Shown: positions 6,819 through 27,993 of the stretch, one piece after another
Numbering within the stretch: the stretch's first letter is position 1
How the letters are laid out: the number at the start of each line of letters is the position of its first letter
Assembly: GCA_903834625.1 (NCBI GenBank)
Contig: CAILJQ010000216.1
Span: 1-38,041, forward strand
Reading direction: 5' to 3'
Length of the DNA stretch: 38,041 bases
Origin: an uncultured Bacteroidota bacterium
GTDB lineage: Bacteria > Bacteroidota > Bacteroidia > UKL13-3
Translations under genes and position numbers: made by a program
The notes under the pieces: generated by a model
Database searches by the model: none
Told to the model about the DNA's origin: nothing
The model's input: the letters and a program-made list of their open reading frames with translations, nothing else

Positions 6819-9800
6819 CTACCTAAGTACCTTAAATTGACTGAGCCTATTCTCTTGTTTTACACTTACAAAATAAACCCCTTTGGCATAGTCACTCATG
6901 TCTATATTCAACTGGTTTTCTGCCTTTACAGCGGTGGCAACCAATTGCCCTGCACTATTGTAAACTTCAACCCAAGCTTCACCTTGCGGTAACTCTACTG
7001 TTAATACAGAGCTCACAGGATTAGGATAATATTTAATTTCACCCAATGAGCTTGAATTCGTTATACCTGTTGGTACACCTGGTTTACAACTTCCAATTTT
7101 ATAAGAGTTTTTATTGGTAGATGTGTTCTTCTCTCCTGCTCCAGGATACGAATACGTATAATAAAAATAAACCATGGTACCTTTACTTGCTGTCATTCTA
7201 TATGGCACATTAGGCGTTACTATATAGCCAGGCATGCTGTTAGCATTGGCTCCATAATACAATATACAAGTAGGAGAACCCACTCCAGTTTTGCTTGGTA
7301 TAAATGTAATAGTTGGATTGTTCTCGTCTTCACTAAACAAATAATCATAGTCGCTGTTAAACGCGGTACCACGACATGATGGTGTTGGGTCAACATAAAT
7401 TAATACAGGCGCTGAGGTAGTGCTTGCTCCATTATTATCTGTTGCTACTGCCGTGATAGAATAAATACCTACAGCTGCATTCCAGTTCATTTGGTATGGG
7501 TATTGCGTGGTGCTGCCAATAAACTTCTGACTGGCATAAAATTTAACCTCTGCAATGCTTCCATTTAAATCAGATGCCAAAGCAGAAATAAAAACAGGTT
7601 CATTAGCTAAATGCCTGGTTTTGTCAACCGGACTATTAATAGATATTTTAGGCAATACATTGTTTTGTGTAGAGGAGATAAGATACATATCATCTTCATC
7701 TGAATAAGCGCCACTACTTACTTTTAAGCGAATTAAATAAATGCCTTCCTCCAAACCACTCACGGTTGGGGCAACCACTTGTTTGTTTGAAAAAGTAAGC
7801 ACACTTGGTCCATATACCTGTAACCATTCATAGGTTAAAGTTCCAGAGCCCGGAACGCTGCTCGCACTGCCATCAAGATTGGAGGTGCTGGTTGGTAATA
7901 CTACCAATTTATTGGCTCCGGCATTGGCAATGGGTTGGTTATAGGTAAGCGGGCCATTATATGAAAAAGTTAATTTTCCAATGTTTAACTCACCACTTTC
8001 AAAAACCAATTTTAATACTTGAACACCACTTTTTAAAGGAATAGAAGCTATTGATTTATTGGCCCAAGTTGTCCAATTATTTGTATAAGAAACGGTAATA
8101 TTAGAAGCAACAAGTTGTCCATCTGCATATATAGAAAATGGTCCACCTCCTGCTGTATTGCCGCATGCATAACGCATCTGTAGTTGGTATGTTCCTGCTT
8201 GTTTCACATCTACCGTATAAGATAACCATTCACCGGCAGTTATCCAGCCCACTACTTTTCCTTCATTTGCGTCAGAAGATGCGTCTACATACTCTGTTGT
8301 TCTAAAATCACCTTCATTTTTGGCTGCATTGTCGTTGTAGGTAATTCCTTGGCCAACGCCTCCTTCAAATACATCAAACTCTCCAGCCATTACAGTACCA
8401 GGAATGTTTATAGGATTGCCTGAATAGGGAAGTCGATCGCCTACAGTAACCACCACAAAATTGCTCAATTTATAGTTGGTTCCTGAATACACCTTGGCAT
8501 ACAAATAGTTTTTACCAACGGGCAAATTGCTTGCTTTCATAGCGTAGGGAGCAACATTGTCTTCACCCAATTCAACTTCGCCATTCATAAAAACAACTTT
8601 GCTTGGGGTGCCGCCAATTACTTGCATTTGCAACTGTACACTTCCACCCGGATAGGCTTGGGTAAAGTTACTCTGTAAAGAACCTCCTATAGTAACATCT
8701 TTACTAGTTACCATTTGGCGTGCAGGAACTGTTAATACATAGGCATCAGAAAATGTTACTTGTATGCTTGCATTGCTATAATTATGGGCAACATAGGTAT
8801 TCACTCCATTTTTGGTAAATACCGCTGCTAAAGGATAATTAGAACTAATAGCAGTATTAAATGTACCCAACACATTCATGGAATGTAACCAATGGTATGT
8901 TTGCGCATCCGATATCCCAAATTTTAAATTTCTATTGGTATTAGAATTGTATAAATCAATGGCCTTTTGTGGGTTCACAAATGCCAAATAAGAATACATC
9001 ACATCATGCCATAAATTATCGTTTACTTGATTACTCAAAATGCCTGTGTTCTTTTCAATTTCCGCCCACAAACGTTTTACGTAATTGGTATCGCTACTTA
9101 AGTACAATGAGCCACCATGTATTGGATACATCTCTATGCCATAGGATGCAGCAATATCACTGGTCCAAAAGGTACCATTATCATAACTGTTACCCCACAC
9201 GCGTGATACCAAACTATAGTTTTGATTTGGTCCAAAATTTCTATCGTGTATGTCTAACCAATATTCTTCAATAGCACTTTGCTCGGTAGTATATAAATAG
9301 ATTCCTAAATCTCTGATGGCTTTGTTATTGGTAACAGCTCCCCAATGAATCAAAGAAGAATTAAACTGCATACTTTCTGAGGTAGATTCTTGGTCGTTCC
9401 CTTGAGGGAAAGTAGCAAATCCATTGGCCCAACAATGTCCGGCGTATGGACTAAAATTCCTTAAATAAGGAAACTGTGTGCTGTTACGTTCACTGTTTGC
9501 AGCATCCTTTACCAATAGGTTCACCATAGTTCCCCATTTGCTTATCCAACCTGGTTCAAACTGCTCAACAAAAGAAGCCGCATGTATAAAATATCCCCAA
9601 TGAAAATGATGGTCGTTGATGTTTCCATCTTGTCCGTGTCCTGCTGGGTAACCAATTAATGTTGACCAATTCTGGTTATAATAAAACAAGAAAGCCACCT
9701 CACCTGGTTTGGCATGTAACCAATTTTCAAGTCGGTCTTTTACAGTAACAAATATGGTACGTAATGCAGCTGTATCCTTTGTAAGCTCTGCTATCCTTGC

Positions 9801-10952
9801 TGTTTGAATGAGTCTATTTAAAACCTGACCTTCATTATAAGAATCTGTCCAGGTACTTAAGCCTTCATTTTTAAGGGCATCTATTTTTTCTTGCAACTTA
9901 AGCGGACTAAATCCATTGCTATAATAATCTAAATAAGGCAGGGTGGGCAATATGCCATAAAATTTATTTTCTACGGCATACCTATTGGTAGCCATGGTTT
10001 TTATCTGTCCTCTCACACCGGCATAGGTGTATGTTTCGAAGCTTGTAGACCCAGAAACTAAGTGCGACCACTGATGTGGCAATAAGCCCAAAAGAACCAC
10101 CGAGTCTGTGCCCTCTTTCACTTCTTTTTCAACCACAAACTCAGTTCTTACAATGGCTGTACTTTCATTATAACTCCAATTGGCCAAAGTGTTTTTAGGA
10201 AAAACATAAGCGTATTTTTGGTAAATATTTGCAGTACTATTTACATCAGATACAGTTAATGGAATAAAGGCCATAGACCAATAGTTTTTTCCATTAAGCG
10301 TAGATGTATACACGCTGCCCGACTTAAGCCAAACACTTCCTTTTGGAGCGTATACAACAAAGTCGGCACCATTACGCAAATTCATAATAATGAGCTTTTC
10401 ATTATCTATGGTTGCGGTACCTTGGTTTACTGTAACCTGCGCGGTAGAAGCGCTGTCTTTGGTAAAATACAAAAATGGCATTGCCAATCCACTGGTAGCA
10501 GTAAAGCTATTGCTTCCATTGTTCCAGTTCATTGAAACGGTCCAATCAGAAAAATCTGATACTTTAGCTGCACTTGCATTTAAGCCAGTTACACCCACCA
10601 CTACAGGTTGCACATCATCTATTACTCCCCATGGAATATACGTAACAACTAAACCACTGTTTACTGTTTTAAGTGTGTATGGATAATTGAATAAATTATC
10701 GCTGTGGTTATTTTTAATTTTATTCGACCACCAATCATTTGTTGGAGCAGGCTTACCTGCAGCAGCGCCTGTTGTTAGTGGTGCTCCCGAAGGAAAACCA
10801 TTCCTACCAGCCACATCGGTTCCCGGAAATGTGAGGGTATAACTTCCAGAACCTACTGGAACTATTTGCGCAAATACCATTTGTTTGGCAAACAACAAAC
10901 ACAAAACAAATATTGCTTGTAGGACTTTGGTTTTTGAAAAATTGGGGTTCAT
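6819..10952 (-). CDS. Multimodular GH81 endo-1,3-beta-glucanase (GH81, CBM6-like, PKD/Ig-like, CBM56-like, T9SS sorting domain)
   Basis: GH81-type 'NINDHHFHWGYFIHAASFVEQF...WANGFATFPQGNDQESTSESMQFNSSLIHWGAVT'; CBM6-like 'GEFDVFEGGVGQGITYNDN...GEWLSYTVDVKQAGTYQLQMRYAC'; C-terminal 'IKYYPNPVSSVLTVELPQGEAWVEVYNSAGQLV...FKVLR'. Confidence 0.92.
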   Translation of the reverse strand: MNPNFSKTKVLQAIFVLCLLFAKQMVFAQIVPVGSGSYTLTFPGTDVAGRNGFPSGAPLTTGAAAGKPAPTNDWWSNKIKNNHSDNLFNYPYTLKTVNSGLVVTYIPWGVIDDVQPVVVGVTGLNASAAKVSDFSDWTVSMNWNNGSNSFTATSGLAMPFLYFTKDSASTAQVTVNQGTATIDNEKLIIMNLRNGADFVVYAPKGSVWLKSGSVYTSTLNGKNYWSMAFIPLTVSDVNSTANIYQKYAYVFPKNTLANWSYNESTAIVRTEFVVEKEVKEGTDSVVLLGLLPHQWSHLVSGSTSFETYTYAGVRGQIKTMATNRYAVENKFYGILPTLPYLDYYSNGFSPLKLQEKIDALKNEGLSTWTDSYNEGQVLNRLIQTARIAELTKDTAALRTIFVTVKDRLENWLHAKPGEVAFLFYYNQNWSTLIGYPAGHGQDGNINDHHFHWGYFIHAASFVEQFEPGWISKWGTMVNLLVKDAANSERNSTQFPYLRNFSPYAGHCWANGFATFPQGNDQESTSESMQFNSSLIHWGAVTNNKAIRDLGIYLYTTEQSAIEEYWLDIHDRNFGPNQNYSLVSRVWGNSYDNGTFWTSDIAASYGIEMYPIHGGSLYLSSDTNYVKRLWAEIEKNTGILSNQVNDNLWHDVMYSYLAFVNPQKAIDLYNSNTNRNLKFGISDAQTYHWLHSMNVLGTFNTAISSNYPLAAVFTKNGVNTYVAHNYSNASIQVTFSDAYVLTVPARQMVTSKDVTIGGSLQSNFTQAYPGGSVQLQMQVIGGTPSKVVFMNGEVELGEDNVAPYAMKASNLPVGKNYLYAKVYSGTNYKLSNFVVVTVGDRLPYSGNPINIPGTVMAGEFDVFEGGVGQGITYNDNAAKNEGDFRTTEYVDASSDANEGKVVGWITAGEWLSYTVDVKQAGTYQLQMRYACGNTAGGGPFSIYADGQLVASNITVSYTNNWTTWANKSIASIPLKSGVQVLKLVFESGELNIGKLTFSYNGPLTYNQPIANAGANKLVVLPTSTSNLDGSASSVPGSGTLTYEWLQVYGPSVLTFSNKQVVAPTVSGLEEGIYLIRLKVSSGAYSDEDDMYLISSTQNNVLPKISINSPVDKTRHLANEPVFISALASDLNGSIAEVKFYASQKFIGSTTQYPYQMNWNAAVGIYSITAVATDNNGASTTSAPVLIYVDPTPSCRGTAFNSDYDYLFSEDENNPTITFIPSKTGVGSPTCILYYGANANSMPGYIVTPNVPYRMTASKGTMVYFYYTYSYPGAGEKNTSTNKNSYKIGSCKPGVPTGITNSSSLGEIKYYPNPVSSVLTVELPQGEAWVEVYNSAGQLVATAVKAENQLNIDMSDYAKGVYFVSVKQENRLSQFKVLR

Positions 10953-11563: not shown

Positions 11564-12589
11564 CTATTTGTAAACTCTTACATAATCTATCTCCATGGCA
11601 CCGCTAGAGAAGGCAGGATCAATGGCACCGCCAAAATTACCGCCCATAGCCACGTTTAAGATGATAAAGAAATTATGGTTGTATGGAACTGTACTATTAT
11701 TTGGGAAGGTGTATTTTAAAGTACCATCTACAAAAAACAGAATAGAAGCAGCAGTCCACTCCATGGTATACACATGGAATTCGGTAGTAGCATTGCTAAT
11801 GGTGTGATTAAACCCAGTTGCATTGCCACCAGAATGACCCGGATAATGTAATGTATGGTAAATTTTGTTTTCTTGATTACCCAAGTGTTCCATGATATCA
11901 ATCTCGCCACAAGCTGGCCAACCCACTTGGTCAATATTGCTACCCAACATCCAAATAGCTGGCCACGTACCCCCGCCCTTAGGCAGCTTTGCACGCACCT
12001 CTACTTTACCATATTGCATTACAAATTTTCCCTTAGTTAACATCCTAGCAGAGGTATATGATTTGCCACCAAAGTTTTCTGCTTTTGCAGTAATCTTTAA
12101 GGTACCGTTAGAAACAAAAGCATTTTCTTGGCGATCTGTGTAATACTGTTGTTCTGCATTACCCCAACCATTGCTTCCAGTTCCAATATCATATCCCCAC
12201 TTGTTAGGGTCTGGTGAACCTGTATAATTGAACTCGTCTGACCAAAAAACAGCAGTGGCTACAATCACATCTACCTTAAGAGATTTACTTGTAAAGCCAA
12301 TATCATTTTTAGCCAAAACAGTTACGTTAAACAGGCCAGACTTACTATACTTATAAGATATTTTACCATCAACACTTGCACGCGAAACGCCATCACCAAA
12401 ATCATATTCATAGCTAGTTGCCTTACTCGCACTGGCTACAAAAGTAACATTACCCGTGCTGTCTTGAGCAATAGTTGCCTGTACTGTTAGTCCACTTGGT
12501 GCAACTTCTGCTGGGTCTGCTGATTCTGCCTTAGAGCATGAAATCATGATAAGAGCAGCGAGTAAAACAAATATCTTAGAGTTTCTCAT
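11564..12589 (-). CDS. GH16 beta-1,3-glucanase (laminarinase) lipoprotein with N-terminal PKD-like domain
   Basis: Lipobox 'LIMISCSKAE'; GH16 signature 'WPACGEIDIMEHLGNQENKIYHTLHYPG'; C-terminus 'MEIDYVRVYK'. Confidence 0.95.
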   Translation of the reverse strand: MRNSKIFVLLAALIMISCSKAESADPAEVAPSGLTVQATIAQDSTGNVTFVASASKATSYEYDFGDGVSRASVDGKISYKYSKSGLFNVTVLAKNDIGFTSKSLKVDVIVATAVFWSDEFNYTGSPDPNKWGYDIGTGSNGWGNAEQQYYTDRQENAFVSNGTLKITAKAENFGGKSYTSARMLTKGKFVMQYGKVEVRAKLPKGGGTWPAIWMLGSNIDQVGWPACGEIDIMEHLGNQENKIYHTLHYPGHSGGNATGFNHTISNATTEFHVYTMEWTAASILFFVDGTLKYTFPNNSTVPYNHNFFIILNVAMGGNFGGAIDPAFSSGAMEIDYVRVYK

Positions 12590-13501: not shown

Positions 13502-15067
13502 TTAATTCAGTTCAATATCATCAAAATAATAGGTGAAATTGGCAGAGCCATCTCCCATGGTGCCATTCTCAAAAATAAGAATAACCTTTTGGTAGGTTTT
13601 AGCCACATTAATTCCCGAGAAATCAAAGCTTAATTGCTCCCAAGCATTGCTGGTAGTAGTTGTAACCTCCTTTTCGTAACTAATGCCACCATCGGTTAAA
13701 TTCTCAACCTTCAACAAAACTTTCGCGCCTACTTTTGGTGAGTATACCTTCATCTTAAAAGTTTTGGTACCTGTAAATGCCATAGGTGCTGCCAAGGTAG
13801 CAAAACTACCGCCCCAAGTTTGTCCGTTGCTCTTAATCATTTTACCTACTTTATCAGACACGTTGATTCCTGTTTTGCTAGGGTTTGTAGCTGTACTAAC
13901 TGCACCACCATCAAATGGTGTAAATGAATAGTCAACCAAAGTAGATTCAAAATTCATAGGTAGGTTCAAAGGCAATGAACCACTCAGGTTAATGTCATCA
14001 AACAAGAAAGTATAGTTTGGTGAACCATCTCCCATGGTGCCTAAATCAAAAATTACCACAACTTTATGGTATTCTTTGGAAACATCAACAGCGCTATAAT
14101 CAAACAACAATTCTTCCCAAGCATTTGCTACAGTAGTGCTTACTTCTTTCTCATAGCTAATGGAATTGTTAGATTTATTCTCAACTTTTAATAACACTTT
14201 AGCGCCAACACGTGGTGAATATACCTTCAATTTAAAGATTTTTCCATCGGCAAAGTTGATTGGCTTGCTCAATTCTATTAAGCTTCCGCCCCATACTTGT
14301 CCGGCACTTTTCACCATTTGTGCCACTTTATTGCTTGTGTTAACTCCTGTTTTACTTGGATTATCAATAACGGTTACCGCACCTCCATCAAAATTGGTAA
14401 ACTTATAATTAAGTGTTGCCGATTCAAAAGTTACAGGCAACAATATTGGGTCTTCTACCACAATCGTTTTCTCTATTTCTGAAATGGCTGTTCCACCACC
14501 CAATGCTTGCAATTTTAACTTATAGGTTCCTATTTTAGCATATACGTGAGAAACGGTATCGCCTTCATTAAACGAGATGGGTGCTGCCGTAGAATCTTCT
14601 CCAAAATAAATTTTGAAACTGGTTTCATACAAAGCTTTTGCACTTACAACAATTCTAAAACTGTTGCTCGCATCTGGCGTAGCTGTAAGTTCCAAAGCCT
14701 CTGGTGCCTTAAAGGTAACTGTAAGAGATTTGTTAAATTCGGCAGATTTTCCAGAGGGGCTGTAAGCTACCAATCTAACATCATACGTGCCTTCAGCATA
14801 TTTATGTACAAGCACTTTGCCTGCGTCTACCTTACCTGGCATGGTAGATGTATCACCAAAATAAACTTGGTAATAAGTAGCTCCTTCGCTTGTTGGAATA
14901 ATGGTAACGTTACCAGAATTGTCTTGAGTAATCTCAAACAACATTCCCAAATTAATTGGGGCCGACATCTCATTTAAAAAAGATGTATCTGTAAATTCTT
15001 TCTTTTTGCAACCCCACAAGGTGAGCACAATGGATGAAAGCACCAGTAAATATCTTAGTTTATTCAT
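13502..15067 (-). CDS. Surface glycan-binding lipoprotein with PKD-like N-terminus and two tandem CBM-like domains
   Basis: Lipobox 'IVLTLWGCKKKE'; two homologous domains 'LPVTFESATLNYKFTNFDGGAVTVIDNPSKTG...DDINLSGS' and 'LPMNFESTLVDYSFTPFDGGAVSTATNPSKTG...DDIELN'. Confidence 0.85.
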   Translation of the reverse strand: MNKLRYLLVLSSIVLTLWGCKKKEFTDTSFLNEMSAPINLGMLFEITQDNSGNVTIIPTSEGATYYQVYFGDTSTMPGKVDAGKVLVHKYAEGTYDVRLVAYSPSGKSAEFNKSLTVTFKAPEALELTATPDASNSFRIVVSAKALYETSFKIYFGEDSTAAPISFNEGDTVSHVYAKIGTYKLKLQALGGGTAISEIEKTIVVEDPILLPVTFESATLNYKFTNFDGGAVTVIDNPSKTGVNTSNKVAQMVKSAGQVWGGSLIELSKPINFADGKIFKLKVYSPRVGAKVLLKVENKSNNSISYEKEVSTTVANAWEELLFDYSAVDVSKEYHKVVVIFDLGTMGDGSPNYTFLFDDINLSGSLPLNLPMNFESTLVDYSFTPFDGGAVSTATNPSKTGINVSDKVGKMIKSNGQTWGGSFATLAAPMAFTGTKTFKMKVYSPKVGAKVLLKVENLTDGGISYEKEVTTTTSNAWEQLSFDFSGINVAKTYQKVILIFENGTMGDGSANFTYYFDDIELN

Positions 15068-15085: not shown

Positions 15086-16594
15086 TTAATAACCCGGATT
15101 TTGACTTAGGCCAGAAATGTTAATTTCCTCAAAAGGAATTGGGAATACTTCATGTTTTCCTTTAACAAATCCTGTGATCTTTGTTTCTGCCATACCCGTT
15201 CTCACTAAATCAAAGAAACGATCACCTTCCATGGCCAATTCTAAACGTCTCTCATCCAAAATAGCTAAATACAAAGCATTGCCACTTGCACTGATATTAT
15301 GGGTGTTATCACCAAAAGCTCTTTGTCTTACCAAATTTACATATTCCAATGCCTTTACTTCACTTCCACCCGATTTTACCAAGGCCTCTGCTGCCATTAA
15401 TAAAACATCTGCATAGCGAATGGTGCGGTAATTATTTAAGTAATTCAATTCTATTTGTCCTGAAGTTTGTCCCTTTCTTGGCAAGAATTTTTGATTATAT
15501 AATCCTGTGTTTTTGTAAGGCGCTTCTTGGTATGTAATATTATAGCTTGGATGTGCTGCTTTGTATGCTGCAATGTCTAATACTGTTACCGCTTTCCTTT
15601 TATCACCACTTTGATAAGCTGATGCCAAATCTGTAGTTGGCAAATTGGTACTCCAACCAGCTGCATATGGCATTGAGTCGGTTCCATTAATACCTCTTAC
15701 TCCACATTGTTGTACGGCATAGTTACCCTGACCTCTGTTAACAGCTCCCCAGTTGTAGTAAGGACTGGTATTTGAGTATTGAATTTCAAAAACCGACTCT
15801 GGTCCGTTTTCGCCACTTGATAAAAAGATACCTTCATAATTAGATGGCAAACTGAAAGCATTTGAATTGATCACATTCGCTAACATGTCTGATGCATCAG
15901 TGTATTTTTGTTGGTATAAATAAACCTTACCTAACAATGCTTGTGCAGCATATTTGGTTACCCTACCTTTTTGTATTTGAACACTAGGTAATACAGCAAT
16001 TGCACTTAATAAATCACTTTCAATTTGTGCATATACTTGCGCCTTATCTGTACGCTTCAATGATTTGCTTTCTGTTAAACCTAAACGCTTCTCTGTAAAC
16101 AAAGGAACATCGCCAAAAAAGCGTACCAAATGAAAATAATAATAAGCACGCAAGAAATAAACCTCACCATACAAAGCTTCTTTACCAGTAAAGCTTACTG
16201 TATTTCCTCCAGGGTTTTTAGCTTTATATTGGTGCATATAATTAGCTCTATTGATGCCCTCGTAAGCTGCTTGCCACAATTCTGTTAAAGTTGAATTGTT
16301 GGCATTGTGGGTCATGTCATCTATTTGTTGTAACGATAATACATCTGATGCACTTTCGCCACCAGATACTGCATTATCAGAAGCAATTTCTCCAACTACT
16401 ACACTTTGGTTCAACCATTGGATTGGGGTGTAAACACTCACAGCCATGGTACGGTAGTCGGCTTCTGTTCTTAAGTAGTCTAATTCTGTTTGTTTAAAGT
16501 CTTCATGTGGATCATAATCTACCCACTTTTTACAAGATGCCAGTGTTAAAATCAACACCGACAGGACAACTATTGTTGATATTCCTTTTTTCAT
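15086..16594 (-). CDS. susD: RagB/SusD family nutrient-uptake lipoprotein
   Basis: 'LTLASCKKWVDYDP', 'YFLRAYYYFHLVRFFGDVPLF', 'LNNYRTIRYADVLLMAAEALVKSGG', 'ILDERRLELAMEGDRFFDLVRTG', 'VFPIPFEEINISGLSQNPGY'. Confidence 0.97.
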   Translation of the reverse strand: MKKGISTIVVLSVLILTLASCKKWVDYDPHEDFKQTELDYLRTEADYRTMAVSVYTPIQWLNQSVVVGEIASDNAVSGGESASDVLSLQQIDDMTHNANNSTLTELWQAAYEGINRANYMHQYKAKNPGGNTVSFTGKEALYGEVYFLRAYYYFHLVRFFGDVPLFTEKRLGLTESKSLKRTDKAQVYAQIESDLLSAIAVLPSVQIQKGRVTKYAAQALLGKVYLYQQKYTDASDMLANVINSNAFSLPSNYEGIFLSSGENGPESVFEIQYSNTSPYYNWGAVNRGQGNYAVQQCGVRGINGTDSMPYAAGWSTNLPTTDLASAYQSGDKRKAVTVLDIAAYKAAHPSYNITYQEAPYKNTGLYNQKFLPRKGQTSGQIELNYLNNYRTIRYADVLLMAAEALVKSGGSEVKALEYVNLVRQRAFGDNTHNISASGNALYLAILDERRLELAMEGDRFFDLVRTGMAETKITGFVKGKHEVFPIPFEEINISGLSQNPGY

Positions 16595-16614
16595 TTTTAA
16601 TTCAATTAGTGTGA

Positions 16615-19509
16615 TTAAAATTTAACATCAATTCCTAATGCAAATGTTCTCGCTTGAGGATAAGCACCTCTGTCGATACCAGTATCTAATACGCCTCCAG
16701 CAATTTCTGGATCAAAACCTGAATACTTGGTAATAACAAAAGCATTCTTCACTTGCGCATAGAACCTAATTTTGTTGATCTTAATACGCTTAGGGAAATT
16801 GCTTATGCTATATCCCAATTGGATGTTCTTCAATTTAACAAAAGATCCATCCTCTACATACCTATCTGAAACCCTGCTATTGTTGTTTGCGTCTACAAAA
16901 GAATATCTTGGATTTTCTGCACTGTTTGTACTTCCTTCTCCTGTCCATCTTTCTAAAATTCTTCTGTCTTTGTTGGTATAGTTACCATTACGCTCATACG
17001 CTCTGTAAATGTCATTACCTACTGAAGCATATGTGAAGGCGTTTAAATCAAAGTTTTTGTACTCAACAGTTAAATTCCAACCTAAGGTAAAATCTGGAAA
17101 TGGATTACCAATTTGGGTACGGTCATCAGCATTAATTACTCCATCACCATTTACATCCACAAATTTGATGTCTCCAGGCTTTGCTCCTAATTGCTTAGCT
17201 GCAGCTGCTATCTCTTGCTCGTTCTGGAACAAACCATCTGTTTTGTATCCATAGAAATAACCTGGCGAGAAACCTTTTTCAAATACCGTTACACTTTGTG
17301 ATTGACCATTAAAATAGTAACCACCAAAAATCTTAGCAGTACCATCTGTATTGGTTGCAGTAACCTCATTTTTAGCAGCAGTAAACGTGATTGAATTGCT
17401 CAGTTTTACTTGATCTTTTATTTTTTCATAGTAAGCAAAAGTAATGTCAACACCTGTAGTTTGGGTTGAACCAATATTGTCTGTAGGAATAGGTACAGTA
17501 CCTAAATAAAGAGAAGCAGAAGGAGTAAACAACAAACCATCTACTGATTTTCTAAATACATCTGCACTTAAAGAGAATTTATATTTGTGGAAAATCATGT
17601 CAAATCCAAAGTTAGATTGAATTTGTTTCTCCCATCTCAATGCATTGTTTGCTGCTGAACCAACGGTAGCACCTGGCACAAATATGTCGCCAAAACTGTA
17701 ACCATTGCTATTACCAGTTGGACCATAACTTGGACCACCCGTTATAATACCTACAAACTGTGGATTTACATTCTCGTTTCCAATAGCGCCATAACTACCT
17801 CTTACCTTAAGGTTGTTAATGAATTTAGATTTGAAGAAGTCTTCTTCAGATACAATCCATCCCAATGAACCAGAGTAGAAGTTTGCATATTTATTGTCGA
17901 TACCAAAAGCATAAGAACCATCTCTTCTAATGGTAACTGAAGCCAAATAACGTGATTTGAAATCATAGTTTACACGAGCAAAAGATGAAAGGTTTCTTCT
18001 AAAATATTGGTAGTAATATCCATTAATGGCAGTTGGATTCAGAGCGGTGTTGGTTCCTGTGGCAGCTGTAAAATCTGCAAATTCCCACGAGTTAAAAGGC
18101 ACATCTTGGCGCGATGCTCCTAAAGCATTGCCTGATACTTTTGCCAATGCAAAACCTAATACTGTTTCAAAATCATGGTCCTCTTTGTATTTAAAGTTAT
18201 AGTTTGCAAACGACTCCCATGTCCAATTAAAGTTACCCATTTTATCATGGTTAACTTGGTTAAACTTACCTGCTACTGCAGTACCATCAGCATTCATGGT
18301 ATTGTCTACGTTTAGTGGGCCATAAAACACCAATGGTGTAAATGATTTCGCGTCGTTGTCAAATTTGGTATAACCAAAGCGAGTACTCACTTTTAGGTTA
18401 TCCAAAATATCATATTGAAACTCAAATTTACCGTAGATTTTAGTACCTACATTTTTGTTATAGGTATTATCTAATTTGGTAAGAGGGTTATAAATTTCTG
18501 AAAGCAACAAATTACTATAACCAGCATTGCTGTTAGCCACTGTAGGATCAAAATTAATTGCGCTTCCTAATACACTATTGAATGAATTCTCTTGAACACC
18601 TTTACTATTCAAAACAACACCTGTAGTGTTCATAATGAACTTCAATTTAGGTGTTAAGTCAAAAATCAAGTTTGCTGTTAAGTTACCTCTGGTAAAATTA
18701 GATTTATCCATACCACCCACAATACCTCCTTGCTGTAAGGCTCCAGCAGATAAGAAATAAGTCATCTTATCACTACCACCTCTTGCAGTTACGTTGTGCG
18801 ATTGAATGGCAGCTCTTTTGAAAACCTCATTTTGCCAATTGGTTCCAACACCTAACTTACTCAAATCAGAAAACACCAATCCACCACCAGCTAATCTACT
18901 TCCTTCATTTACCATGGCACCATATTCAGTTGCATTTAAAACACCAACTGTATTAACTACCTCTTGAAATCCGTAATAACTGCTGTAGTTAATATCAGTT
19001 TTCTGATTACGCTTACCAGATTTGGTTGTTACTACTATTACTCCATTACCACCTTTCACACCATAAATAGCAGTAGTAGCCGCATCCTTCAACACGTTTA
19101 TTGATTCAATGTCACTTGCGTTAATTGAATTTAAATCTGTTAATGTTTGTGGCACCCCATCAATAATAACCAATGGATCTGTTCCAGAGAATGAAGGTAT
19201 TCCTCGCACAAAAACGGTTGGCTTTGAACCTGGACTACCACTGTTAATAATAGATAAACCAGATGCTCTTCCTTGCAAAGCATCTTCTACACGCACCGGT
19301 TGCAGCTTTTCAATATCAACGCTTTTGATGGTAGAAATGGCTCCAGAAACCTTGGTCACCTTTCGGGTTCCGTAACCAACAACAACCACCTCCGAAAGTT
19401 TGGTTGTGTCGGACAGTCTACCGGGTTTTGGTCCCGTTTGCCCATTCACCTGCTGCGTGGAAAAACCCAACAGGAGTGCTAAGGGCAGAATTGTAAATTT
19501 TCCTCTCAT
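16615..19509 (-). CDS. susC: SusC/RagA family TonB-linked outer-membrane transporter
   Basis: TonB box 'LSEVVVVGYGTRKVTKVSGAI'; plug 'VEDALQGRASGLSIINSGSPGSKPTVFVRGIPSFSGTDPLVIIDGVP'; C-terminal barrel strand ending in F. Confidence 0.97.
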   Translation of the reverse strand: MRGKFTILPLALLLGFSTQQVNGQTGPKPGRLSDTTKLSEVVVVGYGTRKVTKVSGAISTIKSVDIEKLQPVRVEDALQGRASGLSIINSGSPGSKPTVFVRGIPSFSGTDPLVIIDGVPQTLTDLNSINASDIESINVLKDAATTAIYGVKGGNGVIVVTTKSGKRNQKTDINYSSYYGFQEVVNTVGVLNATEYGAMVNEGSRLAGGGLVFSDLSKLGVGTNWQNEVFKRAAIQSHNVTARGGSDKMTYFLSAGALQQGGIVGGMDKSNFTRGNLTANLIFDLTPKLKFIMNTTGVVLNSKGVQENSFNSVLGSAINFDPTVANSNAGYSNLLLSEIYNPLTKLDNTYNKNVGTKIYGKFEFQYDILDNLKVSTRFGYTKFDNDAKSFTPLVFYGPLNVDNTMNADGTAVAGKFNQVNHDKMGNFNWTWESFANYNFKYKEDHDFETVLGFALAKVSGNALGASRQDVPFNSWEFADFTAATGTNTALNPTAINGYYYQYFRRNLSSFARVNYDFKSRYLASVTIRRDGSYAFGIDNKYANFYSGSLGWIVSEEDFFKSKFINNLKVRGSYGAIGNENVNPQFVGIITGGPSYGPTGNSNGYSFGDIFVPGATVGSAANNALRWEKQIQSNFGFDMIFHKYKFSLSADVFRKSVDGLLFTPSASLYLGTVPIPTDNIGSTQTTGVDITFAYYEKIKDQVKLSNSITFTAAKNEVTATNTDGTAKIFGGYYFNGQSQSVTVFEKGFSPGYFYGYKTDGLFQNEQEIAAAAKQLGAKPGDIKFVDVNGDGVINADDRTQIGNPFPDFTLGWNLTVEYKNFDLNAFTYASVGNDIYRAYERNGNYTNKDRRILERWTGEGSTNSAENPRYSFVDANNNSRVSDRYVEDGSFVKLKNIQLGYSISNFPKRIKINKIRFYAQVKNAFVITKYSGFDPEIAGGVLDTGIDRGAYPQARTFALGIDVKF

Positions 19510-19528: not shown

Positions 19529-21760
19529 TTATGGATGTATTTCGATTGAATCTTTCAAACTAGAAACGCTAAAGAAAAACTTGCCAGGCTCTAATTCAAA
19601 TTGGTTTTTAAGTCCAACAAACGACAGCTCTTTTGTAGCCATTACAAATGGTACAGTTAGTTTTTCACCTGCTTTTAAATGAACACGTTTAAACGCTCTG
19701 AGTCTTTTTACAGAGGGGGTAATGCTTGCAAATTCGTCTGATGAAAAAACCAAAATGGTTTCATCTCCATCTGTGGTTCCTGTATTGCTTAAGGTTACCT
19801 CCATTTGAATGCTGTCTTTTGCACCTAAATTACGCTGGCTAATGCTCATGCCATTATAATTAAATTGGGTATAACTGAGGCCTGAACCAAATTCGTACAA
19901 AGGATTAAAACCATTGCGTTTAAATTCTTTATCATATAGTTCAGTATACTTGCAATCATAGGTGCTATGTGTTGAGCTGAACCTAGGATAGGTAAATGGC
20001 AATTTTCCGCTTGGATTTACTTTGCCAGATAATATAGCAGCAATAGCATCACCTCCAGCATTTCCTGGCAACCCGGCAAACAAAATAGCATCACACATAG
20101 GTTCAGTAGTAGCAAAAGTTCTTGGCCTTCCTTCCACCAATACAACCACTACCTTTTTGCCTGACTTGTGGTATACCTGAATCAATTCTTGTTGCGCATT
20201 TTCTAATTCTAAATCGTTTATATCTCCTGGCTTTTCGGTATAAGTATCTTCACCCAAACACAATACTACCGTACTCACCCCAGATGCTGCACGCAATAAT
20301 TCTGCATCCGATAAACGCGTGGTATAGGTATTACCTTTTAAATAGGATACATTTCCTTGCTTCATTTCTTCTTGTAGTGCGTTTAAAATAGTATTTACCT
20401 CTGGGTTATAAGCTGTATCTCTTCCTTGCCAAGTATGCGTCCAACCACCATTCAAAGCGTTTATGTAATTTGCGTTCGGACCAGTAACCAATACTTTTTC
20501 ATCTGCTTTAAATGGCAGCACATTTCCTTGGTTTTTTAATAGCACAATAGCTTCAGAAGCCAATTCAAAACTTAAGGCCTTACTCGCATCTGTGTGCAAT
20601 GTATGGTTACCCATTAAGTTAACTACAGGATTTTCAAATAAACCTAATTCATACTTCAATTGTAGAATACGTGTAACAGCCTCGTCTATTCTCGATTCTT
20701 TGATTTTACCTTCTTTTACATTTTCAATAAGGTATTTGGTAAAATCTAAATCTAATGGAACCATAGCCAAATCAATACCCGCGTTAATAGACATGGCAAC
20801 AGCCTCTTTGTATGTGGCAGCCACATGATGACGCTCAATTAAATTTTTGATGTCTTCCCAATCTGTCACAGCAACACCTTTAAAACCCATTTCTTCGCGT
20901 AATACCTTGGTAAGTAAAAAATGACTGGCATGCACTGGCTCACCATTCCATTCTGAGGAGTTAACCATAACGGTTTTGGCACCTGCACGAATAGCGTTGG
21001 CAAATGGTGGCAAAAATATTTCGCGCAATTGGCGTTCTGGAATATAGGCTGGGGTTCTATCATGACCATTTCTAGGGTCACTGTAACCAACATAATGTTT
21101 CAAACAGGCAGCCATCATGGTATCTCCTTCTTGATATCCTTTTACCATACCACAACCCAATTCAGAAACAACATACGGATCTTCCCCAAATGTTTCCCAA
21201 AATCTTGGCCACATAGGGTTTCTACCTACATCTAATACAGGAGAGAAGTTCCAAGGAATACCACTCGATTTAACGTCTTGAGCCACTTTAACGGCCATTT
21301 CATGCAATAACTCCCTATCGAAAGTTGCCGCCAATGAAATTTGTTGAGGATATAAAGTTGCTCCAACAGTATAATTTGCACCATGGATAGCATCTATTCC
21401 ATACAAAACAGGAATCTGCAAACGGCTGCTTTTAGCATAGGTTTGTATGCTGCCAATAATTTCTTTCCAATGCTCTTGTGAATAGGTATAACCACCTACA
21501 TTTAGAATCGAGCCTACGCCCATGTCTACAATCACTTGACGGAGTTTACTGCTATCCAGTGCATGCGGCTTACTTAAGGCTCCTGTAGTGTCATAAACAG
21601 AAAGCATTTCAATGGTCAATTGCGTCATTTGCCCAGCCTTTTCTTCGAGGGTCATTTTCTTGACCAAACTTTTCGCCTTGCTTTCAGCCGAGTCATTGGC
21701 AGGCAAGTTGCATTGAGTCAGCAAAATAAGTAAACTAAGTACCGTAAATATTTTCTTCAT
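19529..21760 (-). CDS. GH3 family beta-glucosidase, lipoprotein
   Basis: 'MTLEEKAGQMTQLTI', 'FGEDPYVVSELGCGMVKGYQ', 'GVAVTDWEDIKNLI', C-terminal Fn3-like domain. ORF opens at 21808, but 'MKKIFTVLSLLILLTQCNL' lipoprotein signal starts at 21760. Confidence 0.95.
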   Translation of the reverse strand: MKKIFTVLSLLILLTQCNLPANDSAESKAKSLVKKMTLEEKAGQMTQLTIEMLSVYDTTGALSKPHALDSSKLRQVIVDMGVGSILNVGGYTYSQEHWKEIIGSIQTYAKSSRLQIPVLYGIDAIHGANYTVGATLYPQQISLAATFDRELLHEMAVKVAQDVKSSGIPWNFSPVLDVGRNPMWPRFWETFGEDPYVVSELGCGMVKGYQEGDTMMAACLKHYVGYSDPRNGHDRTPAYIPERQLREIFLPPFANAIRAGAKTVMVNSSEWNGEPVHASHFLLTKVLREEMGFKGVAVTDWEDIKNLIERHHVAATYKEAVAMSINAGIDLAMVPLDLDFTKYLIENVKEGKIKESRIDEAVTRILQLKYELGLFENPVVNLMGNHTLHTDASKALSFELASEAIVLLKNQGNVLPFKADEKVLVTGPNANYINALNGGWTHTWQGRDTAYNPEVNTILNALQEEMKQGNVSYLKGNTYTTRLSDAELLRAASGVSTVVLCLGEDTYTEKPGDINDLELENAQQELIQVYHKSGKKVVVVLVEGRPRTFATTEPMCDAILFAGLPGNAGGDAIAAILSGKVNPSGKLPFTYPRFSSTHSTYDCKYTELYDKEFKRNGFNPLYEFGSGLSYTQFNYNGMSISQRNLGAKDSIQMEVTLSNTGTTDGDETILVFSSDEFASITPSVKRLRAFKRVHLKAGEKLTVPFVMATKELSFVGLKNQFELEPGKFFFSVSSLKDSIEIHP

Positions 21761-21823: not shown

Positions 21824-21881
21824 GATTTGGTAAATCTCCACTGAAATCGCATAAATACCGCTTTTTAACTCCCCAAAACGC

Positions 21882-21922
21882 CTACATCATCAAAGAAGAT
21901 TACTACATCATGCCTACTACAA
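21882..21922 (+). promoter_or_regulatory. Direct-repeat operator candidate: CTACATCAT (21882), CTACATCAT (21903), CTACTACAA (21914)
   Basis: Repeat starts spaced 21 and 11 bp, in the divergent regulator/GH3 intergenic region. Confidence 0.55.
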
Positions 21923-21999
21923 CAAATGTCAACTATCTGATAACAAATAAATTATTTTTTGTAATTGTAAATTCAATTTTGTATCATTTGCAATTCAAA

Positions 22000-24885
22000 A
22001 TGAAGTTGCATTCAATAAAATATACCCTCATTATCCTTTTCGTTGGCATAGGTGTTTTTGCACATCATAAAGCATTGTCCCAAACGCTATCTGCTGAACC
22101 GATGGTAAAAAGCTACCCGAAACAGATATACAAAGGCGGTACCCAAACTTGGGACATATCAGAAGGAGATAATGGCTTAATATATTTTGCCAATAACAAT
22201 GGCCTCATTCTCTTTGATGGCAAGCAATTTAACAACTTTCCATTGCCCAAAAACACCATCCTTCGTTCCATTTTGTTTGATCCAAAAAGCAAACGAATTT
22301 ATGCAGGTGGACAGAATGAAATTGGTTACTTTGAAATAACGCCTACAGGTAAGCTCGAATTTAACTCACTCACCTCCTTGCTTCCTCCTGGAAATAGTGG
22401 CTTTGAAGACGTTTGGGGGATAAAATCATTTGAGGGCAAAATCTTCTTTCAAACCCGTCGTCAAATATTCATTTATACAGGCAAAACCTTTCAGGAAATT
22501 AAGCCCTCTGAATTTGTGCTTCAAAACATTTTTACCGTAAACAACCGCCTCATACTAACAGATGCTGCTGGAGGAATTTATGAACGTAAAAATGGCGGAT
22601 TTGAGCTCTTGTTGCGCGCGAACGACTTAGATGTCTCTAGCATTCTGCCTTATAAAAACAACAGTTTACTTATTACAACTTACAAAAACGGATTATATAT
22701 TTTAAGCAATAACCAGCTTTTACATCCTGAAATTAACGACGCTGTATTGCGTTCAAACCGAATTTACCGTGCTTGTGCCTATGGATCCTACTATGTATTA
22801 GCAAGTAATAGAGGAGGTATTTTTTTCTTAGATAGTACCCTACAAATTATCAATAATATTGGCGTTAAAGAGGGCTTACAAAACAACAATATCCTTTGTT
22901 TACTTAAAGATAAAAACGGCAATGTGTGGCTAGGCCTCGATAATGGAATTGACTTGGTTCGGCTCAACTACCCTTTTGGATATGTAATTCCCGATGGATT
23001 ACTGAAAGGAACGGGATATTGCATGGTTGAATCAATGAACAACTATTATTTTGGCACCAATAATGGCTTCTATTTTAGGAACAAGCAAAACCATTCAAGC
23101 AATGGGTTTCAATTGGTTGCAAACACCGAAGGACAAGTTTGGTGGGCACAAGATATTCATGGAAAAATTTTCGTTTCGCACCATGAAGGCCTTTTTGAAA
23201 TTGATGGCGCCGTAGCTAAAAGAATCTCCACCATTCAAGGCTGTTGGAAAATGATTCCCTTGAAGAAGTACCCTGGTTATTACCTCATGGGGACTTATGA
23301 CGGTTTGAACCTTTTTAAATGGGAAAATAACAGCCTAACATTCTCAGGAAAGCTTGGCCCCTTCAAAGAATCGAGCCGCTTTTTAGAAGAAGATGAATTA
23401 GGAAATATTTGGGTGGGACATCCATACAAAGGTATTTACCGATTGAGGTTAAGCGCAGATTTAAAAAGCATTCAACAAGTAAAACACTATGGCATTAAAG
23501 ATGGTCTGCCCTCTGAAACAGAGAACTACGTTTTTAATTGCAACCAAGGTGTTGTGTTTTGCACCGCTAAAGGCTTATATGAATATAGAGACGACAAGAA
23601 ACGCTTTGAATTATCTGGCGCATTTGCTCCACTTACCGACAGCTTGAAGACCTTAAAACGCGTTATTAATGGCCAAAATGGGAACATCTGGTTTGTTGCT
23701 GAACAAGAAATCTTCTGCCTTAAACCAGCTTACAATGGTATGGATTATTCTTTTACCAAATTGCCCATGCCTAAGTTAGACCAAAACTTAGTTGGTGGTT
23801 TTGAATACCTCAATGAAACTACTGATGGAACAGTATTTCTGGGATTAGAAGCAGGATTTGCAGAAATAAATGCTTCCCAAATTTCCAATTTTGTTCAAAT
23901 ACCTCCCAATGTATTGATTACTGCCATTCAATCATTAAGTATTCCAGATTCTGTGTATTACAGGTACATTCAAGCCAATGGCGACAAGCTAACCATTTCA
24001 GATAGGTCTATTGAATTTGGATACAGCTCTCCAAATGCCAACTTTTTTGCCGACCTAAGTTTCTCAAGCTATCTAGAAGGATGGGATAAAAGTTGGTCGG
24101 TTTGGAAACCTGGCAACTCTAGAGAGTATAGCCAGCTTTCAGATGGCGATTATACCTTTCATGTAAAGGCTCGGTATATGGGACTAGAAGGCCCCGAAAC
24201 CATTGTGAAGATTCATATCCCTGCACCTTGGTATTGGACCAAATATGCACGACTGATTTATTCCCTTCTCCTTATCCTCATTGTTCTTATCATTGGATTT
24301 TACCCGCAAATGTTGGTTCGGAAAAAAGCCATAAAAATAATTGCGGAAAAAGACGACCATTTCAAAAAACAAACCAGCGCCTTGATATTGGAGAAAGAAA
24401 AGCAAGAAAAGGAGCTCATAGAACTGCGTAACCAACAATTGCAGAAAGAGGTGGAGCACCAAGGAAAGGAGCTTGCCTCCTCTACCATGCACATTGTTCA
24501 AAAAAGTGAAATGCTCATGTCTATCAAAGACAAACTCAAACATATTTCACAAATTAGCAACGACCCAAAAATCAAACCTGAAATCTCTGAACTCATTAAA
24601 AACATTGAGAAAGACACGCTTATCGACAAGGATTGGGGCAAGTTTGAATTGTATTTTAATAATATCCACGACAGTTACACCAAAAGCTTAAAAGATCGAT
24701 TTCCTGTGCTTACAGCTAACGATATTAAAATGTGTGCCTATTTGCGCATGAATCTCTCTACTAAGGAAATTTCAACCATTCTGAATATATCTACACGAGG
24801 TGTAGAAATTAGCAGATACAGACTTCGCAAGAAAATGGGCCTTGAGAATGGCATCAATTTAAGCGATTATTTATCGAAGATATAA
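22000..24885 (+). CDS. Membrane-anchored one-component regulator: two-component-type beta-propeller, Y_Y_Y domain, TM, coiled coil, LuxR-type HTH
   Basis: Propeller repeats ('GNVWLGLDNGIDLV', 'GNIWVGHPYKGIYRL'), Y_Y_Y-like 'YSQLSDGDYTFHVKARYMG', TM 'YARLIYSLLLILIVLIIGFY', HTH 'LTANDIKMCAYLRMNLSTKEISTILNISTRGVEISRYRLRKKMG'. ORF opens at 21910; 22000 (MKLHSIKYTLIILFVGIGVFAHHKALSQ) preferred. Confidence 0.9.
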   Translation: MKLHSIKYTLIILFVGIGVFAHHKALSQTLSAEPMVKSYPKQIYKGGTQTWDISEGDNGLIYFANNNGLILFDGKQFNNFPLPKNTILRSILFDPKSKRIYAGGQNEIGYFEITPTGKLEFNSLTSLLPPGNSGFEDVWGIKSFEGKIFFQTRRQIFIYTGKTFQEIKPSEFVLQNIFTVNNRLILTDAAGGIYERKNGGFELLLRANDLDVSSILPYKNNSLLITTYKNGLYILSNNQLLHPEINDAVLRSNRIYRACAYGSYYVLASNRGGIFFLDSTLQIINNIGVKEGLQNNNILCLLKDKNGNVWLGLDNGIDLVRLNYPFGYVIPDGLLKGTGYCMVESMNNYYFGTNNGFYFRNKQNHSSNGFQLVANTEGQVWWAQDIHGKIFVSHHEGLFEIDGAVAKRISTIQGCWKMIPLKKYPGYYLMGTYDGLNLFKWENNSLTFSGKLGPFKESSRFLEEDELGNIWVGHPYKGIYRLRLSADLKSIQQVKHYGIKDGLPSETENYVFNCNQGVVFCTAKGLYEYRDDKKRFELSGAFAPLTDSLKTLKRVINGQNGNIWFVAEQEIFCLKPAYNGMDYSFTKLPMPKLDQNLVGGFEYLNETTDGTVFLGLEAGFAEINASQISNFVQIPPNVLITAIQSLSIPDSVYYRYIQANGDKLTISDRSIEFGYSSPNANFFADLSFSSYLEGWDKSWSVWKPGNSREYSQLSDGDYTFHVKARYMGLEGPETIVKIHIPAPWYWTKYARLIYSLLLILIVLIIGFYPQMLVRKKAIKIIAEKDDHFKKQTSALILEKEKQEKELIELRNQQLQKEVEHQGKELASSTMHIVQKSEMLMSIKDKLKHISQISNDPKIKPEISELIKNIEKDTLIDKDWGKFELYFNNIHDSYTKSLKDRFPVLTANDIKMCAYLRMNLSTKEISTILNISTRGVEISRYRLRKKMGLENGINLSDYLSKI

Positions 24886-24891
24886 AAACAA

Positions 24892-24918
24892 CAAAGCCCC
24901 GCTGCGGGCGGGGCTTTG
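24892..24918. terminator. Strong GC-rich hairpin between convergent genes
   Basis: CAAAGCCCCGC-TGCGG-GCGGGGCTTTG: perfect 11-bp stem, 5-nt loop, 6 nt after the regulator stop codon. Confidence 0.85.
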
Positions 24919-24945
24919 AATGAAAAAAAAACACACTTCGGGAGC

Positions 24946-27870
24946 TTATTCTTTAATCAATTTGAAGGTTCTCATCGAATCTCCAACTGTTACTTTAACC
25001 ATATAAACTCCAGGAGTGATAGATTCAATATTCATGTTCATTTCACTTGAACCTTTAACTTTACTGCTTAATACTTCAGCACCTAATAAATTGCAGATAG
25101 ATACTTGAACATTTTCGTTCAAACTCATTCCAAAATCTACGTGTAAGTCATTACCAGCAGGGTTAGGATACATGCGCATTGCATTTAATTTGTTCTCATT
25201 TAATCCTACTAATTTACAAGGACCACAACTTTCCCAACATACAGTAGCTAAAGTATCATTTAACTTACTTACCACACTTGTACGGTTGGTGAAACCAGAT
25301 TTTGTAGTTACACATGGCATGGTGTCTTTCAAGTTTTCTTGTGAAGCCCAGTTGCCAATTACGTATTTGTAATCGTATGAAGAATCTTTGTCTAATAACA
25401 AGGTAGTTTGCCAAACATTGCTGCTTCCCATACGGGTCATTTTGTTACAAGCACCACACCAGTTGTTAAATGTACCATTTAAAGTTACGGTATCACCAGC
25501 ATTCATAGTATATTTCGACATATCTACTCTAAATGTCATAGTTGTTTTTGGTGGAGCCACTGTAGCACAAGCAGCACATGATTCCCAACATACCAATGGT
25601 AAAGTATCATGCATTTTAGTTGTTCTGTAAACACGGTTAATAAAAGAACCTGTTGTTTTTGTACAGCTAGAACCATCTTTTAAGGTTTCTTGTTGAGCCC
25701 AGTTACCAATAGTAAACTTGTATTCAATTTCTTTACTTGTATCCATTGGAACGGTAGTATACCAAATTTTGGTTCCTGGTACATTGTTTAATTTAATACA
25801 AGCACCACACCAGTTGTTGAATGTACCATTAAGCGTTACTGTATCACCAGCTGCCATAGGTACGTTTTTCATATCAACTCTAAAGGTAATATCAACCTTG
25901 CTTGGCGGCGGAGGTGCAATAGAACCAGCAAATTCTACATCATCTGCATAATACGTTTTGGCTCCAGCAGTTGCACCGGTAGTTCCAAAATTGAAGAAAA
26001 CAGATAACATTTTATATGAATAGGTATAGTTAATAGCTGCTGTACCGGCAGATTGGTTCGCAAAGTCAAACTCAAGTACTTGCCATGCGTTAGCAACAGT
26101 AGTACGGGTATCAGTTTCTACGCTCTTGGTACCATCACCAACAACTTCAGCCTTCATTTTTACTACAATACCGCTATCAGGTGAAAATACTTTCATCTTA
26201 ATTTTGGTTGAACCAGCTACAAAAGGAATAGGCATAGCCAAACCTGCTGGAGTGCTTAATGTTGTTCCAGCCCATAACTCAGCTGTGTTTCCCTTGATAA
26301 ACTTAGCAACTTTGTTGTTTGCGTTATTTGGATCAGCTACAACAGATGAAGCATTACCACCAAAATCAACCATGGTATAATCTACATTAGTAGCATCAAA
26401 GTTGATAGGTAATTTTACTTGTTGTGGCGGTGGAGGTAAGGCATTTGTCATTCTTACATCATCAAAATAATAGGTTTTGGTTCCAGCAGTTGCACCAGTT
26501 ACGCCAAAGTTGAAGAAAATAGAAAGCATTTTATAGCTAAAAGTATAGTTAATTGCTGCCGTACCACTTGATTGGTTTGCAAAATCAAACTCAAGTGTTT
26601 GCCAAGCATTAGCAACAGTTGTACGTGTATCAGTTTCAACACTCTTAGTAGGATCACCTACTACTTCAGCTTTTAACTTAATTGAAATACCACTATCAGG
26701 TGAGTACACACGAACACTCATTTTGCTTGAGTTAGCGCTAAAAGGAATAACCTCAGCTAAACCAGATGCGGTACTCAAAGTAGTTCCAGCCCATAATTCA
26801 GCTGTGTTTGATTTAACTGCTTTTCCAACTTTATTGTTTGCGTTGGTAGGATCAACAGCAACAGACGATGCATTGCCACCAAAATCAACCATGGCATAGT
26901 CTACATTGCTTGAATCATAGTTAATAGGAAGTTTTACTTGTTGCAATACTGGAGCACTAGGTGGCACCATTTTCAAATCATCAAAATAGTAAATCTTGTT
27001 ACCTGCAGTGGCACCAGTAACACCAAAGTTGAAAAATACAGATGCTTTCTTGTAAGTATAAGTATAGTTAATAGCGCCTGTACCTGCACTCTGGTTTGCA
27101 AAGTTAAACTCTAAAGTTTCCCAAGAGTTAGACTTAGTGGTTCTCACATCTGTTTCTACACTCTGTGAACCATTTGAAGCATTTTCAATTTTTAACTTAA
27201 CCAAAATACCACTGTCAGGTGAGTAAACACGCATGGTCATTTTGGTAGCGTTAGGAGCTACTGGAATAGCTGTTGCAAAACCACCACCTGTTCCTACTGT
27301 AGTTCCTGCCCATAATTCAGCAGTGTTTGGCTTGGTTACTTTGGCAACCTTATTGGTGCTTACCATTGGATCGGCAACAACAGCGCTGATATTACCACCA
27401 AAATCTGTCATGGTGTAATCTACGTTGCTACTGTCAAAATTTACTGGCAAGTTAATGGCTTGTAAGCCAGCACATGCCGAGCACGACTGCCAGCAAACAA
27501 CCGGTAAGGTAGTGTTAGCAGTTACGTTAATGGCCCTGTTGGTAAACGCACCTGTAGTAATTGTACATGGTGTTCCAACTGTTAAACTTTCTTGGCTCGA
27601 CCATCCGTTGATGGTATACTTAAATTCATGGGCACCTGTTGGAATAGAAATGGTTGCTTCCCAAACTTGTGTACTTCCTTGCTTCACCAATGGATTACAC
27701 TTTCCGCACCATGAATTCCAGGTTCCGTTAACATATACCGTGTCGCTTGCGCCCAAACCGGTATACTGTGACATGTCTACCTTAAAGGTAACATTGTAGT
27801 TCTGAGCCGATACCGTCCCGCAAAAGAGCAGTAGCAGCCAGAGAAATGATAATTTTGTAAAAACTCGCAT
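24946..27870 (-). CDS. Large non-catalytic modular secreted protein (A-B-B-B-A-A modules) with T9SS sorting domain
   Basis: Signal peptide 'MRVFTKLSFLWLLLLFCGTVSAQ' from 27870; three A modules (FKVDMS...NGTWNSWCGKC...CWQSCSAC), three B modules (LPVNFDSSNVDYTMTDFGGN...DDLKM), C-terminal 'MRMYPNPAGNDLHVDF...GVYMVKVTVGDSMRTFKLIKE'. Confidence 0.9.
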   Translation of the reverse strand: MRVFTKLSFLWLLLLFCGTVSAQNYNVTFKVDMSQYTGLGASDTVYVNGTWNSWCGKCNPLVKQGSTQVWEATISIPTGAHEFKYTINGWSSQESLTVGTPCTITTGAFTNRAINVTANTTLPVVCWQSCSACAGLQAINLPVNFDSSNVDYTMTDFGGNISAVVADPMVSTNKVAKVTKPNTAELWAGTTVGTGGGFATAIPVAPNATKMTMRVYSPDSGILVKLKIENASNGSQSVETDVRTTKSNSWETLEFNFANQSAGTGAINYTYTYKKASVFFNFGVTGATAGNKIYYFDDLKMVPPSAPVLQQVKLPINYDSSNVDYAMVDFGGNASSVAVDPTNANNKVGKAVKSNTAELWAGTTLSTASGLAEVIPFSANSSKMSVRVYSPDSGISIKLKAEVVGDPTKSVETDTRTTVANAWQTLEFDFANQSSGTAAINYTFSYKMLSIFFNFGVTGATAGTKTYYFDDVRMTNALPPPPQQVKLPINFDATNVDYTMVDFGGNASSVVADPNNANNKVAKFIKGNTAELWAGTTLSTPAGLAMPIPFVAGSTKIKMKVFSPDSGIVVKMKAEVVGDGTKSVETDTRTTVANAWQVLEFDFANQSAGTAAINYTYSYKMLSVFFNFGTTGATAGAKTYYADDVEFAGSIAPPPPSKVDITFRVDMKNVPMAAGDTVTLNGTFNNWCGACIKLNNVPGTKIWYTTVPMDTSKEIEYKFTIGNWAQQETLKDGSSCTKTTGSFINRVYRTTKMHDTLPLVCWESCAACATVAPPKTTMTFRVDMSKYTMNAGDTVTLNGTFNNWCGACNKMTRMGSSNVWQTTLLLDKDSSYDYKYVIGNWASQENLKDTMPCVTTKSGFTNRTSVVSKLNDTLATVCWESCGPCKLVGLNENKLNAMRMYPNPAGNDLHVDFGMSLNENVQVSICNLLGAEVLSSKVKGSSEMNMNIESITPGVYMVKVTVGDSMRTFKLIKE
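25921..27462 (-). repeat. Three tandem in-gene repeats of about 500 bp (approx. 26961-27462, 26440-26937, 25921-26417)
   Basis: Nucleotide-similar blocks, e.g. 'gcattaccaccaaaatcaaccatggtataatctacatt' and 'gcattgccaccaaaatcaaccatggcatagtctacatt'; boundaries approximate. Confidence 0.85.
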
Positions 27871-27973
27871 GTTATTTTTTGATTTGTATCTGCAAAATAC
27901 AATCAAACAAAAACCTTCCTTACATACCCAACCCCTACATCGCTTTCCAATCCAAATTTTGTTTATCTTTTTA

Positions 27974-27993
27974 CTACTACAACGCTACTACAA
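27974..27993 (+). promoter_or_regulatory. Exact tandem repeat CTACTACAA-CG-CTACTACAA upstream of the T9SS modular gene
   Basis: Two exact 9-mers 11 bp apart; the same 9-mer occurs at 21914. Confidence 0.6.

Follow-up and report, generated by a model that had tools for sequence, protein, structure and literature searches.

Helically phased direct repeats in a putative laminarin-type PUL of an uncultured Bacteroidota bacterium: a candidate operator for the adjacent propeller/LuxR-type regulator

Genes and repeats at the locus

The window, that is, the whole stretch of 38,041 nucleotides analysed, carries a susCD/glycoside hydrolase locus comprising SusC (TIGR04056), SusD (PF07980), GH3, GH16 and GH81 genes, and within this locus lies a regulator gene (22000..24885, + strand). 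Divergent from the regulator, on the − strand, runs a candidate target operon whose first gene encodes a GH3 (19529..21760; PF00933, PF01915), followed by a SusC-like TonB-linked receptor (16615..19509; TIGR04056), a SusD-like protein (15086..16594; PF07980, PF14322), two PKD-domain proteins (13502..15067, PF18911; 12591..13490, PF00801), a GH16 of the laminarinase-type family with PKD (11564..12589; PF00722) and a GH81 with CBM6 and a T9SS tail (6819..10952; PF17652, PF03422, PF18962). A second candidate target, also on the − strand, encodes a CBM48/AMPK1_CBM modular protein with a T9SS tail (24946..27870; PF16561, PF02922, PF18962). In Bacteroidota, the prediction of PUL substrates rests on gene neighbourhood; here, the presence of GH16, GH81 and GH3 together fits a PUL whose substrate would be a beta-1,3-glucan of the laminarin type.

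Pfam analysis of the regulator identified Reg_prop (PF07494), Y_Y_Y (PF07495) and GerE/LuxR HTH (PF00196) domains in a single protein, all above the gathering cut-offs (27.9 bits against a cut-off of 23.5 for PF00196). A signal peptide, one TM helix (a hydrophobic stretch) and a coiled coil were read from the sequence, and the recognition helix is TRGVEISRYRLRKK. The sensor part matched the solved HTCS sensor structures 3v9f and 4a2l by sequence (PDB), while the Pfam search found no histidine kinase, receiver or AraC domain in the protein, indicating that the regulator is not an HTCS. The TM/coiled-coil/HTH part is common to many open frames of about 550–700 aa with another build, and a scan of named genomes for the regulator returned two close relatives.

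The preliminary description had located short direct repeats upstream of the two candidate targets, and all of its coordinates were confirmed on the + strand. Exact copies of CTACTACAA start at 21914, 27974 and 27985, and those of CTACATCAT at 21882 and 21903. Its remark that no other exact copy had been found needs two additions: an overlapping half-site copy, CTACAACAA, starts at 21917, and a further CTACATCAT at 25935, within the coding sequence of the CBM48-T9SS gene. The half-site consensus is CTACWWCAW, and two half-sites with a period of 11 bp form the tandem CTACWWCAW-NN-CTACWWCAW. In the regulator/GH3 intergenic region, the pair consists of half-site 2 (CTACATCAT, 21903..21911) and, 11 bp on, half-site 3 (CTACTACAA, 21914..21922, overlapped by the CTACAACAA copy), both conserved in the family, and half-site 1 (CTACATCAT, 21882..21890), the third box of the candidate operator, lies 21 bp before the pair. 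In front of the CBM48-T9SS gene, two CTACTACAA half-sites 11 bp apart form the pair, the first (27974..27982) conserved upstream of orthologues and the second at 27985..27993. The distances to the start codons, 122–165 nt for GH3 and 104–123 nt for CBM48-T9SS, were roughly as previously claimed. On the same strand, each array also includes a distal CCC box that had been missed: CCCCAAAACGC (21871..21881), 32 bp from the tandem pair, and, with a degenerate half-site, CCCCTACATCGC (27932..27943), 42 bp from its pair.

We compared the frequency of these elements with that expected by chance. Lone half-sites were weakly above chance in the window (8 as compared with 3.1 expected; 3 of 100 shuffles reached 8). 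The exact 11-bp tandem occurred twice in the 3.38-Mb genome, both times in this locus, as compared with 0.016 occurrences expected from base composition, while the reversed pattern used as a control was found 0 times in the same genome. Rather than being scattered genome-wide, which the preliminary description had considered, the exact tandem is limited to two sites of this PUL. When spacers of 2–24 bp were allowed, four matches were obtained in this genome, three of them being these sites, against one match for the control. When one mismatch was allowed, the single additional match, on another contig (C39), lies within an open reading frame and was rejected as a further genomic site, being attributed to chance.

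Co-occurrence with the regulator and its recognition helix

The exact tandem was present in 22 of the 64 genomes of the same family, with one match in total for the reversed control. When the genomes were classified by the presence of the regulator, the exact motif accompanied it in 20 of 25 cases, whereas 1 of the 37 regulator-less genomes had the motif (20/5 against 1/36; p 1e-10 in a Fisher test, kinship ignored). Four of the five regulator genomes without the exact tandem hold a one-mismatch version, and in the fifth the contig ends before the promoter, so that the upstream DNA is absent; the one motif without a regulator (G079) is a match within a coding sequence and was rejected as a true site. 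Seven same-genus genomes without a detected regulator had no motif in any of them, indicating that the motif tracks the regulator gene and not the genus. Promoters of orthologues in several genera of the family also retained the tandem. None of the refuting conditions named in the preliminary description and assessed in silico was borne out, which gives strong, if indirect, support to the operator function that it had proposed.

Within the family, the arrays mark the regulator/PUL intergenic region and the CBM48-T9SS gene. They also precede GH81 in three relatives (L113, L114, L126), on contigs other than the regulator's, and susC in G004 (L119), with the regulator on a different contig. The G004 susC promoter has the same composite candidate operator, with the CCC box at 31 bp, and its SusC is 94% identical to that of the window, as compared with 57% for the regulator, whose own site is degenerate; in G004, the candidate operator stayed with the target genes. 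Over the stretch L119:7284-14001 (contig C17 of G004), compared with window positions 12591-19509, the SusC, SusD and PKD genes are 81–94% identical, against the same 57% for the regulators, and the PUL core and the operator were probably transferred recently between these genomes, which have different resident regulators. A different operon was observed in many relatives, at L112:7593-13382 and likewise at L107, L109, L116, L121, L124 and L125, where the regulator-divergent operon opens with four proteins of about 616, 573, 344 and 390 aa, followed by GH3 and GH16. The first three had no Pfam match at 1e-5, the 390-aa one matched CBM30/SGBP_B, and no recognised susC/susD lies beside the array.

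Sampling 395 genomes across the class, we found the exact tandem in 10 non-family genomes. In five of these, a homologue at 29–37% identity was encoded no more than about 6 kb from the match; in a sixth (G161), the match separated another homologue from susCD. Half-site and phasing were likewise the same before homologues in about ten other families. We searched the 450 bp before each of 81 non-family homologues (25–37% identity) and found 32 exact half-sites; 400 permuted patterns gave 3.8 on average, and the best-scoring among them overlap the motif itself. All but one of these half-sites (31/32) were on the regulator's strand, the spacing of half-site pairs peaked at 11 bp (12 cases against 0.5 expected, with fewer at 21–23 and 32–33), and the density per kb was 0.88 upstream, as compared with 0.11 within the coding sequence of the regulators and 0.23 in flanking DNA farther out. 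At L219:5886-5999, two arrays of opposite orientation lie between a regulator homologue and susC. At L218:5387-5406 (contig C1 of G102), an exact tandem was found within or close to a small ORF, at a great distance from the two regulator homologues of that genome, and may represent either chance or an unrecognised target.

The half-site was absent upstream of many homologues, chiefly in families f40, f54 and f11, an absence that could be explained by different recognition helices. Motif-bearing homologues mostly have the helix RGVE-x-[S/A/G]-RYR, and many motif-less ones have RGVEIRRYR, RSVEIKRYR or SGVEKRKYR. Allowing up to one mismatch, we found a phased pair in 14 of 36 homologues with Ser, Ala or Gly before RYR and in 0 of 31 with Arg or Lys (p 4e-5, phylogeny ignored). 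On the regulator tree, the motif label changed 11 times, as compared with 30.9 times when shuffled, indicating that it is clustered by descent. Across these homologues, the half-site appears to track a single recognition-helix residue, accompanying Ser/Ala/Gly and not Arg/Lys.

Among the alternatives, the one that survives best, although we consider it improbable, is that the arrays bind another transcription factor co-travelling with the PUL, such as an HTCS of the AraC type or a global regulator. The link to the neighbouring regulator is one of predicted binding, and the comparative genomics study of Ravcheev et al. (2013, PMC3878776) likewise gives HTCS operators as predicted direct repeats, on average 21 bp apart. 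However, the motif follows the presence of the regulator even inside one genus, it lies beside regulator homologues in about ten other families, and the presence of the half-site follows the regulator's own recognition helix; for a global regulator, two sites per genome would not be expected.

Anatomy of the arrays

Within the family, 23 regulator promoters were aligned with the tandem as the anchor. CTACWWCAW-NN-CTACWWCAW was nearly invariant, and the third half-site and the CCC box were also present. Depending on the genus, either 20–21 or 31–32 bp separated the third box from the pair; the two distances differ by one helical turn, indicating that the helical register is kept. The CCC box, which reads CCCAACTCAC in most relatives, was found in 22 of the 23 promoters, either 30–32 or 41–43 bp from the pair, and in 9/9 CBM48-T9SS promoters compared it was found at 40–43 bp. 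A helical face kept through an insertion is the signature that would be expected of a protein assembly touching both sites.

The orientation of the array varied by gene, with TTGTAGTAG reading toward GH3, susC and CBM48, and CTACTACAA toward the regulator and GH81, which rules out a constant gene-relative orientation. We also considered and discarded a simple −7 box of the Bacteroidota type (TAnnTTTG) placed at a constant distance, as it was found in some promoters only. Downstream of the array and before the regulator gene, most relatives have a block like CTGAAAATAAATTAATTATTA (window 21923-21999), possibly part of the regulator promoter.

It is very unlikely that the repeats are a promoter, a UTR/RNA element or the remnant of an upstream coding start, with no dedicated protein involved. 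An in-frame ATG at 21910, inside the array, makes a longer regulator ORF readable, but in most relatives a stop between the array and the gene closes the frame. The occurrence of arrays in both orientations relative to genes also argues against this reading, and a third box that moves by one helical turn would be expected of a protein binding to double-stranded DNA rather than of an RNA fold. Chance or low-complexity repeats, toward which the mild enrichment of lone 9-mers in the window would point, are hardly credible, being already refuted by two tandems against 0.016 expected per genome and by the conservation and strand bias in relatives.

Known systems, proposed mechanism and the wider regulator class

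With high probability, the observations as a whole are best explained by the repeats serving as the operator of the one-component transmembrane regulator encoded next to them. Among the NarL/GerE-type HTH proteins, some have tandem, helix-phased sites, and the NarL heptamer, TACYYMT, is best known from an inverted 7-2-7 arrangement. The window regulator belongs to the same HTH family, and the TAC core of the half-site resembles the NarL heptamer, but the order is inverted for NarL and direct here.

For the SusR-like regulators of Bacteroides, Ravcheev et al. (2013, PMC3878776) present direct-repeat operators predicted by comparative genomics, with 67 or 77 bp between sites. These regulators share with the window system a membrane-spanning one-component protein with a C-terminal HTH, located inside a glycan locus, and predicted direct-repeat operators on one helix face. 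They differ in the distances between site centres (67/77 bp there; 11, 20–21/31–32 and 30–32/40–43 bp here), a comparison by spacing alone in which the letters of the SusR motif may overlap with the half-site described here. HTCSs share the propeller/Y_Y_Y periplasmic sensor (from Pfam and the 3v9f and 4a2l matches) and direct-repeat predicted operators, but they have a kinase, a receiver and an AraC HTH, whereas the window regulator has a GerE/LuxR HTH, another repeat unit and an 11-bp period. Direct-repeat operators with other spacings have already been predicted for both SusR-like regulators and HTCSs; the 11-bp tandem and the composite layout differ from these. According to a recent paper on laminarin PULs, many clusters begin with a LuxR regulator gene; the passage names no operator (PMC13188888). 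In the open literature searched, we found predicted but no measured operators for the propeller/Y_Y_Y/LuxR class, and studies of a xylan regulator and of carrageenan were set aside as precedents, since their LacI/AraC-type and AraC regulators are of another family.

We propose that the periplasmic propeller would bind a beta-glucan oligosaccharide imported by the SusCD system, and that the signal would cross the single TM helix and then the coiled coil. The protein, as a dimer or larger oligomer, would stay anchored in the inner membrane while its cytoplasmic GerE/LuxR-type HTHs occupy the half-sites side by side, contacting CTACWWCAW head to tail every 11 bp, with further contact at the third box and the CCC box, two to four turns off on the same DNA face. 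Once bound, the regulator would act on the GH3-susCD-GH16-GH81 operon and on the CBM48-T9SS gene as an activator, not a repressor, and may autoregulate its own gene; the array may act on the regulator gene too, the two effects being inseparable in a shared intergenic region.

A defined operator would tie distant genes to one sensor, namely the CBM48-T9SS gene here and GH81 and susC on other contigs in relatives, and such linkage would make regulons callable from DNA alone. In addition, a composite helix-phased operator opens to experiment the general question of how a regulator tethered to the inner membrane can occupy sites arranged in tandem on DNA. We give even chances to a broader proposal, according to which the whole propeller/Y_Y_Y/TM/LuxR family of Bacteroidia would use one cis code, with head-to-tail half-sites at multiples of 11 bp and letters set by the recognition helix. 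If so, the PUL regulons of a large, experimentally almost untouched family would be readable from sequence. Where exact CTACWWCAW arrays were absent (61 homologues), direct repeats 8 to 80 bp apart most often had lags of 33, 22 and 11, observed in 8, 6 and 5 sequences, respectively, as compared with about 1 expected, and other half-sites, such as ACCGGACA and ACACATCA, were found in array-less homologues.

Two further repeats were observed upstream of homologues. Direct repeats of ACACCGGACA, 22 bp apart, lie upstream of propeller/LuxR homologues of f11 (L200, L203) and are likely operators of the clade with the helix SGVEKRKYR. Upstream of f54 regulators with the helix GGVELARYR (L174, L193), TACAAAAACACATCA was repeated at 33 bp.
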